From Lachnospiraceae bacterium AC2012 (GTDB lineage Bacteria; Bacillota; Clostridia; Lachnospirales; Lachnospiraceae): 64,000 nt of DNA. Shown here in pieces: positions 6,407 to 20,232 of the stretch (its first letter is position 1; every line of letters starts with the position of its first letter). The notes beneath the pieces were generated by a model. It had not been told where the DNA came from and did not search any database. It was given only the letters and a program-made list of their open reading frames with translations. Made by a program: the position numbers and the translations under genes. The stretch is taken from positions 1,178,001 through 1,242,000 of the forward strand of contig JNIN01000001.1 in NCBI GenBank assembly GCA_000702525.1. Direction: 5' to 3'.

Positions 6407-6450
6407 TGACTAGATAAGGGATCGACTAAAAGACCCTCCTTATTGGAACA

Positions 6451-6485
6451 GAGCCGGTGCATGGAACCCCTCATGCACCGGCTCT
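6451..6485 (+). terminator. Rho-independent terminator of the GH94 gene
   Basis: A 13-bp perfect stem (GAGCCGGTGCATG / CATGCACCGGCTC) with an 8-base loop, followed by TTATTATTTGTTT. It begins 45 bases after the GH94 stop codon. Confidence 0.9.
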
Positions 6486-6526
6486 TATTATTTGTTTGAT
6501 GGCTGTTTTATCTTTTCTTTACTTCC

Positions 6527-6846
6527 CGGGCATATTTTGTGAACTCTTCTTTATCTCCACCATAGTCGGAAGTTTATTTGGGCATATAGCAGTTTTTTCA
6601 TATCCCCTCCACCATATGCATTTTGGGATTTGGGCATATAAGCTTGTTTCTGTTTTCCCTCCACCATGTGCCCTCTTTTATTTTGGAAATATATCCACTT
6701 TTTTAATTTGCCTCCACCATCTTTGGGCATATAGCGCCCCTAACAAATTTTCTCCACCATCCGGTTGGGTATATATGAAATATTTGTTGCGCCTCCACCA
6801 TGTCCCATGGTGGAGCGCTAACACTTTTCGCCTTATATGCCCAAAT
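6527..6846. repeat. Paired-motif array, copy 1
   Basis: About 320 bases repeated with few mismatches and no indel 393 bases downstream. Inside, a two-part unit recurs: motif A (GGGCATATA or a close variant) and motif B (CTCCACCAT), whose starts are 27 bases apart. Forward A starts: 6528, 6580, 6632, 6685 (degenerate, GGAAATATA), 6725, 6767. Forward B starts: 6555, 6607, 6659, 6712, 6752, 6793. One inverted unit ends the copy (ATGGTGGAG at 6807-6815, TATATGCCC at 6834-6842). The intervening 18 bases are variable and AT-rich. The unit-to-unit step is 52, 52, 53, 40 and 42 bases. An open frame crosses the array but its step is not a multiple of three, so conservation is at DNA level. Function unknown. 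Confidence 0.9.
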
Positions 6847-6919
6847 CCAGAAATATTAGAAAACAAGTATGGTGGAGGACAATCAAAAAACTGGCTCTAT
6901 ACCCAAACTTGCTTTTGTT

Positions 6920-7239
6920 CGGGCATATTTTGTGAACTCTACTTTATCTCCACCATAGTCGCAGGTTCCTTTGGGCATATAGCAGTTTTTTCATATCCCC
7001 TCCACCATATGAATTTTGGAATTTGGGCATATAAGCTTGTTTCTGTTTTCCCTCCACCATGTGCCCTCTTTTATTTTGGAAATATATCCACTTTTTTAAT
7101 TTGCCTCCACCATCTTTGGGCATATAGCGCCCCTAACAATTTTTCTCCACCATCTGGTTGGGTATATATGAAATATTTGTTGCGCCTCCACCATGTCCCA
7201 TGGTGGAGCGCTAACACTTTCTACTCTATATGCCCAAAT
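6920..7239. repeat. Paired-motif array, copy 2
   Basis: Near-identical second copy of 6527-6846, offset by 393 bases throughout, with the same six forward A-B units and one inverted unit (ATGGTGGAG near 7200, TATATGCCC near 7227). Between the copies one more inverted unit lies at 6869-6904 (ATGGTGGAG, then TATACCC), again with the 27-base A-B distance, which gives 15 units in all. Substitutions between copies fall mainly in spacer bases. The array lies between the GH94 terminator and the AI-2E gene terminator, so it is probably not part of either transcript. Confidence 0.88.
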
Positions 7240-7308
7240 TCAAAGATTTCAAAACCAAAATCTCCCTTGAGCGGCAGCTCTACTATGCATCTCTGGCTTG
7301 ATTACCTC

Positions 7309-7387
7309 TTCATCATGGAGCGAGCCAGCTGTCAAGGATGCTTCGCACCGCAACGCGGCTCGTCCTTGACAGCTGGCTCGCCCATGA
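7309..7387. repeat. Long inverted repeat (cruciform/hairpin)
   Basis: Arms at 7321-7338 and 7363-7380 are an 18-bp perfect inverted repeat (CGAGCCAGCTGTCAAGGA), with a 24-base GC-rich loop. Pairing extends outward with a small bulge through ATCATGG/CATGAT. There is no T-run on either side, so it is not a simple terminator. It lies 70 bases after the paired-motif array and may be one end of the same element. Confidence 0.75.
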
Positions 7388-7473
7388 TACCCTCCTATTC
7401 AAGCAGAGATTCCATTCCCATAACTAAACTATCTTCTTCCCATTACCACACTTCTTTTCCCCATAAAAAAGCG

Positions 7474-7520
7474 AAAAAAAGAGGCAGTTCTAAGCTCTAT
7501 AAGCACTCAAAGCCACCTCT
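7474..7520 (-). terminator. Terminator downstream of the AI-2E family permease gene
   Basis: On the minus strand an imperfect stem closed by AGAGG/CCTCT is followed by TTTTTTTCGC. It starts about 35 bases after the stop codon of the gene ending at 7556. Confidence 0.65.
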
Positions 7521-7555
7521 TCCTATATAACACGACATTCAAATCACCGCTCTCC

Positions 7556-19147: not shown

Positions 19148-19366
19148 GTTCCCCGCGGCTTGGAATTATTCTTATTTCATTATCGTTTGCTAAGCAGAAT
19201 AAACGTAATCTAATTTGTATAGATAGACACCGCTCGTTATCTCAATCCATTTCGTTTACTCGCTCGTGCTGCCTTCCATGGCAGCACGTGTCTATCTATT
19301 ACAAATAAGATTCCGATTCTGCTAAGCGCACTTTATTCATAAAAATAATTCCAAGCCGCGGGGAAC
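19148..19366. repeat. 219-bp nested foldback (MITE-like) element
   Basis: Outer arms 19148-19170 and 19344-19366 form a 23-bp perfect inverted repeat with GC-rich tips (GTTCCCCGCGGC). Inside, GCTAAGCAGAAT...TAGATAGACAC at 19189-19230 pairs imperfectly with 19289-19326. At the core, GTGCTGCC/GGCAGCAC (19266-19281) forms a third hairpin. About 35 unpaired bases lie on the left of the core. There is no coding frame of note. It probably folds as a single long hairpin. Confidence 0.8.
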
Positions 19367-19929: not shown

Positions 19930-20232
19930 GTCAGAATTACGGTAAACCATTGCACATTTTACTATTATTCTGTAACGCATTTTTTAAATCTTCTTCATTT
20001 ACGGTACGAAAGCTAAAACACTTGCTTTGGTACCGTAAAAAAATTCTTCCATACGTTTGTTGTCGCCACTCAATCAACACTTTGTTGTTTAATACATATT
20101 TGTCCGTACTAAAATTCCACTCAGAATTACAGAAAAACAATTATCTATTAGCATGATTCTGTAATCTTAAAAAAAGCACGAAATTCTCTACGGTAAAAAC
20201 AATGAAATTTAACAAAAATACCGTAATTCGAC
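19930..20232. repeat. AT-rich MITE-like palindrome with TTACGGTA repeats
   Basis: Five copies of TACGGTA in alternating orientation (19938-19944, 20000-20006, 20031-20037, 20189-20195, 20219-20225). The ends are inverted: GTCAGAATTACGGTA on the left, TACCGTAATTCGAC on the right. An internal hairpin pairs TTTACGGTAC (19998-20007) with GTACCGTAAA (20030-20039), extended by GAAAGC/GCTTT. ATTCTGTAA-type words recur at 19967 and 20157. Short open frames on both strands merely reflect the palindrome. No gene is called. Confidence 0.6.

Follow-up and report, generated by a model that had tools for sequence, protein, structure and literature searches.

The reading favoured here, with moderate confidence, is that the two-part DNA units described below form rows of two-contact sites on one face of the helix for a putative cooperative DNA-binding protein. 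Three features point to a putative protein that would assemble along these arrays: the distance within each unit is fixed, the units are laid out in whole helical turns, and the boxes are kept while their surroundings mutate. Two of the arrays lie in the window, the 64,000-nucleotide stretch of DNA that was analysed, which belongs to a genome (G000) with two contigs, C1 of 2,065 kb and C2 of 485 kb.

The T1 array in the window

The first array, of type T1, contains 15 two-part units of the form GGGCATATA-N17/18-CTCCACCAT (A box and B box) between 6528 and 7235, as seen in the sequence itself, with a repeat finder and in a unit scan. Twelve units are forward and three are inverted. The first-pass annotation had reported the same 15 units with three inverted, which the sequence and the unit scan bear out, and it had placed the start of the array at 6527, one base ahead of the first A box at 6528. 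The units form two blocks in tandem, the second starting 393 bp after the first, also as annotated, and the repeat finder recovered them as a 300-bp direct repeat of 97% identity. The features of this locus are:

6450..6485, + strand, terminator-like hairpin of the upstream gene (repeat finder), kept in the syntenic congener
6528..6904, T1 block 1, mostly + strand, composed of eight units, six forward (U1-U6) and two inverted (U7, U8) (sequence, unit scan)
6528-6563, 6580-6615, 6632-6667, 6685-6720, 6725-6760 and 6767-6801, + strand, forward units of block 1
6807-6842 and 6869-6904, - strand, inverted units of block 1
6793..6815 and again 7186-7208, no strand, central palindrome CTCCACCAT-5 nt-ATGGTGGAG, the point at which unit orientation switches
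6921..7235, T1 block 2, seven units, mostly + strand (repeat finder, unit scan)
6921-6956, 6973-7008, 7025-7060, 7078-7113, 7118-7153 and 7160-7194, + strand, forward units of block 2
7200-7235, - strand, inverted unit of block 2
7288..7410, no strand, P, an imperfect palindrome of ~125 bp beside the T1 array (repeat finder)

From the start of A to the start of B, 13 of the 15 units measure 27 and the other two, the sixth unit in either block, measure 26, so that the annotated distance of 27 stands for most units and the single exception of 26 becomes a pair. Both boxes are exact in 8 of the 15 units; the seven inexact units carry one or two changes apiece, in the A box only. Variant A boxes are GGGCATATT in unit 1, GGAAATATA in unit 4, GGGTATATA in unit 6 and GGGTATAGA in the inverted unit at 6869-6904. 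The start-to-start steps of block 1 are 52, 52, 53, 40, 42, 40 and 62. The orientation switch consists of two B boxes around a 5-nt centre, and this centre is identical in all 12 T1 blocks and part-blocks found at nine loci.

The possibility that the array is coding was rejected, as it had been at first sight, because steps of 52, 53, 40 and 62 are not multiples of three and break the frame, and because the open reading frame at 6457-7530 starts within the upstream terminator-like hairpin. A generic array detector, which flags T1, T3 and T4 arrays and misses T2, flagged only the T1 stretch in the 64-kb window and gave no flag in two block-shuffled windows. Furthermore, a loose T1 pattern had 43 matches in G000 and its reversed control had 0. 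Together with the silence of the detector on shuffled windows, this excludes chance as the origin of T1.

Recurrence of the T1 block in the genome

The T1 array in the window is not isolated, as its block recurs at nine chromosomal loci. A looser T1 pattern gave 76 matches in G000, all at these loci on C1, one of them a lone unit ~0.7 kb from an array:

50, 1160, 1176, 1184 (window), 1429, 1457, 1824, 1889 and 2016 kb on C1, T1 loci

The block order is identical at the nine loci and the steps are nearly so, some loci having lost or gained a unit. The islands that hold the arrays are non-coding. Seventeen of the 18 bordering genes belong to ordinary Pfam families, including GH94, AI-2E transporter, MgsA, peptidyl-tRNA hydrolase, SpoVG, ribosomal protein L17 and FtsH, and one is without a family. 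Pfam assigned no bordering gene at the nine islands (0 of 18) to a recombinase, transposase or replication-initiator family. On this result and the presence of the array at many loci, the annotated alternative of a recombination or replication site array is not supported.

The islands often contain P and copies of TwoAYGGAY RNA (RF01731) alongside the arrays. P is known at 20 places in G000, all of them inside array-holding islands. The arrays that have no P core nearby are L062, L063 and L142, those at 1198, 1288, 1292, 1346 and 1386 kb, and those seen on C2. TwoAYGGAY RNA has 25 copies in G000, on both C1 and C2. Five inverted pairs were noticed among these copies, with starts 0.3-1.5 kb apart and stem sequences that differ in the alignment. 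At the nine T1 loci, Rfam gave 11 matches at gathering score, none of which lies inside a T1 array.

Three further families of arrays

Three further families that share the plan of T1 and have other boxes were found beside copies of P. The pattern searches gave:

T2, TTACRGNA-N22/23-TNCYGTAA, 13 loci on C1 (some of 2-3 units only)
T3, TGGTGYACA-N18-TCTRCACCA, 5 loci on C1
T4, GYACAGT-N19-CTGTACYAC, 4 loci on C1

The four families together occupy 27 distinct loci on C1; T2 adjoins T1 at 1429 and 1457 kb, and T3 adjoins T4 at 1323 and 1386 kb. The supposition that the arrays are confined to C1 proved wrong, since T2 arrays are present on C2, five of them in the 372 kb examined of its 485 kb; at least 25 of the 87 forward T2 matches fall in this part of C2. 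The T1, T3 and T4 patterns had no match on C2. The distance between the two boxes of a unit is 26-27 bp in T1, T3 and T4 and 30-31 bp in T2. The two boxes are inverted copies of each other in T2, T3 and T4 and are unlike in T1.

A second array in the window, of type T2, is flanked by a thioredoxin gene and a gene of the nitronate-monooxygenase family:

19179..19337, - strand, TwoAYGGAY RNA (RF01731) near the T2 array, one of the 25 genome copies
19937..20227, + strand, T2 array, centre steps about 62.5, 127 and 62.5 bp
19937-19975 and 20127-20164, T2 units found by the pattern
19999-20038, T2 unit with four changes
20189-20227, T2 unit read by eye

This array, the families T2-T4 and the palindrome P beside the T1 array had been overlooked in the first-pass annotation. 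A two-unit T2 set (L206 4320-4526, C1 1288 kb) adjoins an LGT-family gene. When eight T2 copies were compared, they were found to have a common core from P to the array, with recurring left flanks and three classes of right flank. The left edge of these copies is near P and the right edge is the last unit in the three flank classes. A CTTGTTTT-like stretch is seen in the spacers of some units of T1-T4, for instance at 6643-6650 in the window; because it occurs in all four families, descent from one array with changed boxes is possible. Beside a T4 and a T3 array, terminator-like hairpins (L206 8640-8690, L207 4095-4140) have the T3 box sequence in their stems.

Conservation of the boxes

The mean pairwise identity of eight T1 loci was 96.1% in the boxes, 55.7% in the spacers and 61.5% between units, as calculated from 8 of the 12 aligned blocks (L061a, L065, L066b and L069b were omitted as incomplete). 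Mismatch over 10 copies (U1-U7, 45 pairs; 10 of the 12 aligned blocks) was 2.3% in the boxes and 39.7% elsewhere. The tandem blocks of the window differ at 0 of 126 box positions and at 14 of 189 other sites (p 6e-4). Likewise, the two copies at the 50-kb T1 locus differ at 1/108 box positions vs 16/156 others (p 0.0013), and a pair of T2 arrays separated by 10 kb on C2 differs at 3/96 vs 52/292 (p 7.5e-5). The contrast covers T1 and T2, and for single T1 pairs p runs from 0.0013 down to 4e-19, with box columns that were picked by likeness to the consensus and with related copies that are non-independent. The count of 0/126 against 14/189 in the window indicates that the boxes are kept in place by selection. 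Since resident copies keep their boxes, a purely transpositional reading is weakened and a function in place is favoured.

Helical phase of the units

The helical repeat of B-DNA is 10.4 bp, and the array steps, which range from 40 to 165 bp, follow multiples of this value. The phase was analyzed on a mechanical list of 201 steps, comprising all steps of 30-200 bp within the arrays analysed, with doubtful units kept, and the best period between 7 and 16 bp was 10.40 bp (cos-mean 0.882). T1 alone gave 10.38 (80 steps) and T2 alone 10.41 (70 steps). The 36 distinct step lengths had a best period of 10.40 (0.689), and when those near 52 bp were omitted the remaining 30 gave 10.39 (0.655). When the distinct lengths were jittered by at most 6 bp, none of 20000 trials attained the observed value. 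An earlier list of 25 centre-to-centre steps was compiled by hand, with one entry averaged (62.5), L153's own steps omitted and four weak T2 units read by eye, and its best period between 7 and 16 was 10.44 bp. Because this list was selected, the phase test was repeated on the mechanical list, and the result held.

Homologous steps have a common ancestry, and the argument therefore rests on the unlike lengths 40-42, 52-53, 62-63, 73, 115, 127 and 134. The steps of T3 and T4 are nearly all 52-53 bp, with separate best periods of 12.99 and 7.45, respectively, so that a whole-turn layout fits there but alone sets no period. Off-phase steps of 56, 79, 60.5, 100 and 165 were also found, and one 165 gap contains a weak unit read by eye. 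Whole-turn unit spacing is demonstrated in T1 and T2.

Position on the replicons

From GC skew, C1 has its origin near 1627 kb and its terminus within 538-560 kb. The 27 array loci of C1 are spread over both arms and all lie at distances of 171-624 kb from this origin, or 0.159-0.628 of the origin-to-terminus arm; they are absent near the terminus and near the origin. A post hoc test on 16 merged clusters gives this range a probability of 9.5e-5. The zone of the TwoAYGGAY copies is almost identical, 158-697 kb from the origin, and the mid-arm position is thus not specific to the arrays and may belong to the repeat islands. C2 shows GC-skew changes of its own near 200 kb and at 368-408 kb, and thus looks like a separate replicon.

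Occurrence in other genomes

Exact T1 boxes with a gap of 15-22 were matched in G000 alone among 61 genomes (0 of 60 relatives). With one mismatch, 5 of 299 family genomes matched, namely G000 and four with a single match each. A looser pattern with one mismatch had a single match in 2 of 3 congeners and in 1 of 4 other relatives. A GTDB-wide scan, which may omit the window's own species, returned 7 single-match T1 stretches against ~7.5 estimated by chance. In viral contigs, the T1 and T4 patterns gave 0 stretches each and the T3 pattern gave 3 with a single match apiece. A phage or plasmid origin was rejected on the absence of T1 from viral contigs and of any blastn match of the window array in the plasmid and phage collections.

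The congener G003 (78% complete) is syntenic at the window, where the terminator hairpin is kept and the array and P are absent; the locus measures about 130 bp, compared with about 1.16 kb in G000. The 1176-kb array is absent from G003 too (100 bp vs 569). With both syntenic sites empty, a genus-wide function at those sites is excluded. The empty site at the window is too diverged to mark a join. In 340 kb sampled of G003, the detector and the T2 pattern revealed no such array, and the detector flagged one stretch of 36-bp period. The T2 pattern was not matched in 400 kb of G007, which belongs to another genus. The detector flagged four stretches in G007, three of which are short-period repeats at contig ends. 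The fourth is a row of CTTACAAA boxes (L224 562-990), with 20-22 bp steps and two boxes inverted. A period of 10.0 bp (0.88) suits these steps more closely than 10.4 (0.73), and the row is perhaps an analogous array in a relative.

The P core pattern matched 8 of 397 family genomes, G000 included. Outside G000, six of the seven matches are terminator-like hairpins and one is an unrelated hairpin. The terminator-like matches adjoin similar sequence in the loci displayed, and some of them also have a conserved gene of a kind known from integrative elements.

These searches show that, among the genomes searched, the arrays are restricted to G000. An isolated tandem duplication absent from related genomes had been named at the outset as evidence against the annotated reading. 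The arrays are indeed absent from the relatives searched, and the congener is empty at the window locus, but the duplication does not stand alone and nine loci retain its spacing.

Interpretation and alternatives

In the proposed mechanism, each unit would be one candidate binding site, contacted at two points separated by 26-27 bp (30-31 bp for T2). An array would be a row of such candidate sites along a single face of the helix. A putative sequence-specific protein would bind cooperatively along this face and may wrap or bridge the DNA to give a nucleoprotein complex. The complex would act where it is located, in the architecture of the replicon, its anchoring or its segregation. The arrays may have spread between intergenic sites within mosaic repeats, often including P and TwoAYGGAY. 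The four box families could reflect an altered specificity of the putative protein, or paralogues, with the geometry retained. A symmetric dimer would fit T2-T4, where the boxes are inverted copies, and the unlike boxes of T1 would need two domains or two partners. The earlier suggestion of a protein that touches both motifs gains support from the spacing fixed at nine loci, the conservation of boxes over spacers and the whole-turn units. A broader proposal, offered only tentatively and at low confidence, is a new chromosome-architecture system in which a fast-evolving protein or its paralogues, with at least four box specificities and one geometry, would organise the arms of both replicons.

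The most serious alternative, possible though unlikely, is a non-autonomous mobile element whose arrays are transposase or recombinase sites (compare subterminal repeats), moved in trans, with box families that track the enzymes. The eight T2 copies with P and array occur in several flanking contexts, as mobile DNA would, and G003 is empty at two syntenic sites. Unlike box families in one genome also recall the REP classes with RAYTs, in the available part of the source (PMC2817692). However, the boxes were held during in-place divergence, the local tandem duplicate included, which is unexpected for dead copies. Moreover, target-site duplications or terminal repeats, the marks of a MITE, were not definable from the eight T2 copies and the diverged G003 empty site, and a rough motif screen of 767 kb yielded 19 candidate ORFs, with 0 of the 6 checked in Pfam being a transposase. 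An architectural function of the arrays appears more likely than transposition.

It is improbable that the boxes serve ordinary transcription factors as operators and that the arrays titrate these factors as decoys. Titration requires no fixed helical phase or block layout, and 76 of 76 loose T1 matches are inside the nine array loci. The decoy explanation draws on the few-unit T2 sets beside the thioredoxin and nitronate-monooxygenase-family genes of the window and the LGT-family gene at C1 1288 kb; it is possible that these particular sets are operators.

Structured RNA or transcribed hairpins are considerably more doubtful. The boxes of T2-T4 do form inverted repeats, and folding was seen for a single unit from each of these families (z -2.0, -2.8 and -5.4) and for the tandem pair of the window on its two strands (z -8.3 and -10.2), but the T1 boxes are non-complementary and the folding of two T1 units did not exceed that of shuffled sequences (z 0.3 and 0.4). 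In T3, the letters that vary on the left and on the right (C/A 17, C/G 12, T/G 9 and T/A 4) are Watson-Crick pairs in 16 of 42 units, no more than under independence; DNA half-sites may behave in this way and paired RNA arms would not. Nor would RNA account for steps that follow 10.4 bp, and the T1 arrays contain no Rfam match at gathering score. Least probable of all is a neutral minisatellite, a functionless 52-bp tandem duplication, which would give the exact 52-bp steps of most T3 and T4 units but neither the box-versus-spacer contrast in T1 and T2 nor step departures from 52 bp that come in whole turns.

The usual view of dispersed bacterial repeats is that they are mobile DNA in decay. 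In the present arrays, which belong to families with unlike boxes, the recognition letters are conserved where they lie and the units are set out along the helical repeat. If the arrays are rows of sites for a cooperative protein, as favoured here, the conserved boxes in their helical layout would make the putative binding protein directly findable by DNA pull-down.

Comparison with known systems

A literature search found no published description of these arrays. The nearest systems in organisation are REP sequences and BIMEs. In the available part of the source, BIMEs are extragenic mosaics, dispersed and specific to a species, whose units are regularly spaced, run both ways and fall into several classes per genome, and they bind IHF and gyrase (PMC2817692). 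The present arrays are likewise dispersed mosaics with regular units in both orientations and several classes, as far as the available parts of the descriptions allow the comparison (PMC2817692, PMC3733652). In contrast, the T1 unit consists of two unlike boxes 18 bp apart and not of a 20-40-bp palindrome, and the array steps follow the helical repeat. T1 lacks the REP-type stem-loop, whereas T2-T4 units do form inverted repeats. According to the available description, one end of a REP sequence carries a GTAG or CGTC tag (PMC3733652). Both tags are absent from both strands of the two T1 boxes, and T4 has GTAG on one strand, overlapping the stem. No RAYT was seen in 767 kb (overlaps included) of 2550 kb, with 6 of 19 candidates checked in Pfam.

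BOX elements of streptococci are, in the available part of their description, modular and intergenic, with a repeated inner module, and cluster with other repeats (PMC3049150). The arrays resemble them in modularity, in the repeated inner unit and in the company of other repeats, but the description available presents BOX by RNA-like folds and not by conserved phased boxes (PMC3049150). Helical phasing with boxes conserved over spacers does not feature in the available parts of the REP/BIME or BOX descriptions (PMC2817692, PMC3733652, PMC3049150). A CRISPR array was rejected because spacers in the same slot are homologous across loci.

The sites of the division regulators Noc (NBS) and SlmA (SBS) are dispersed and under-represented near the terminus, according to the available part of the source (PMC4726725), and the C1 array loci also avoid the terminus-proximal part. 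The NBS, however, is a single 14-bp palindrome, whereas the present units are clustered in arrays. In further difference from Noc and SlmA sites, the arrays are missing near the origin too, and TwoAYGGAY occupies the same zone.

Plasmid and origin iterons are rows of boxes at helical-turn spacing, and in this respect the arrays are similar. They differ in lying at more than 25 loci and in having two-part units with a non-conserved middle, and an iteron origin was rejected for T1 because no replication-initiator gene is among the 18 genes bordering the nine islands. In eukaryotic satellite DNA, the site sequence changes while the geometry stays; the four families described here would be a bacterial case of changing site sequence with constant geometry.
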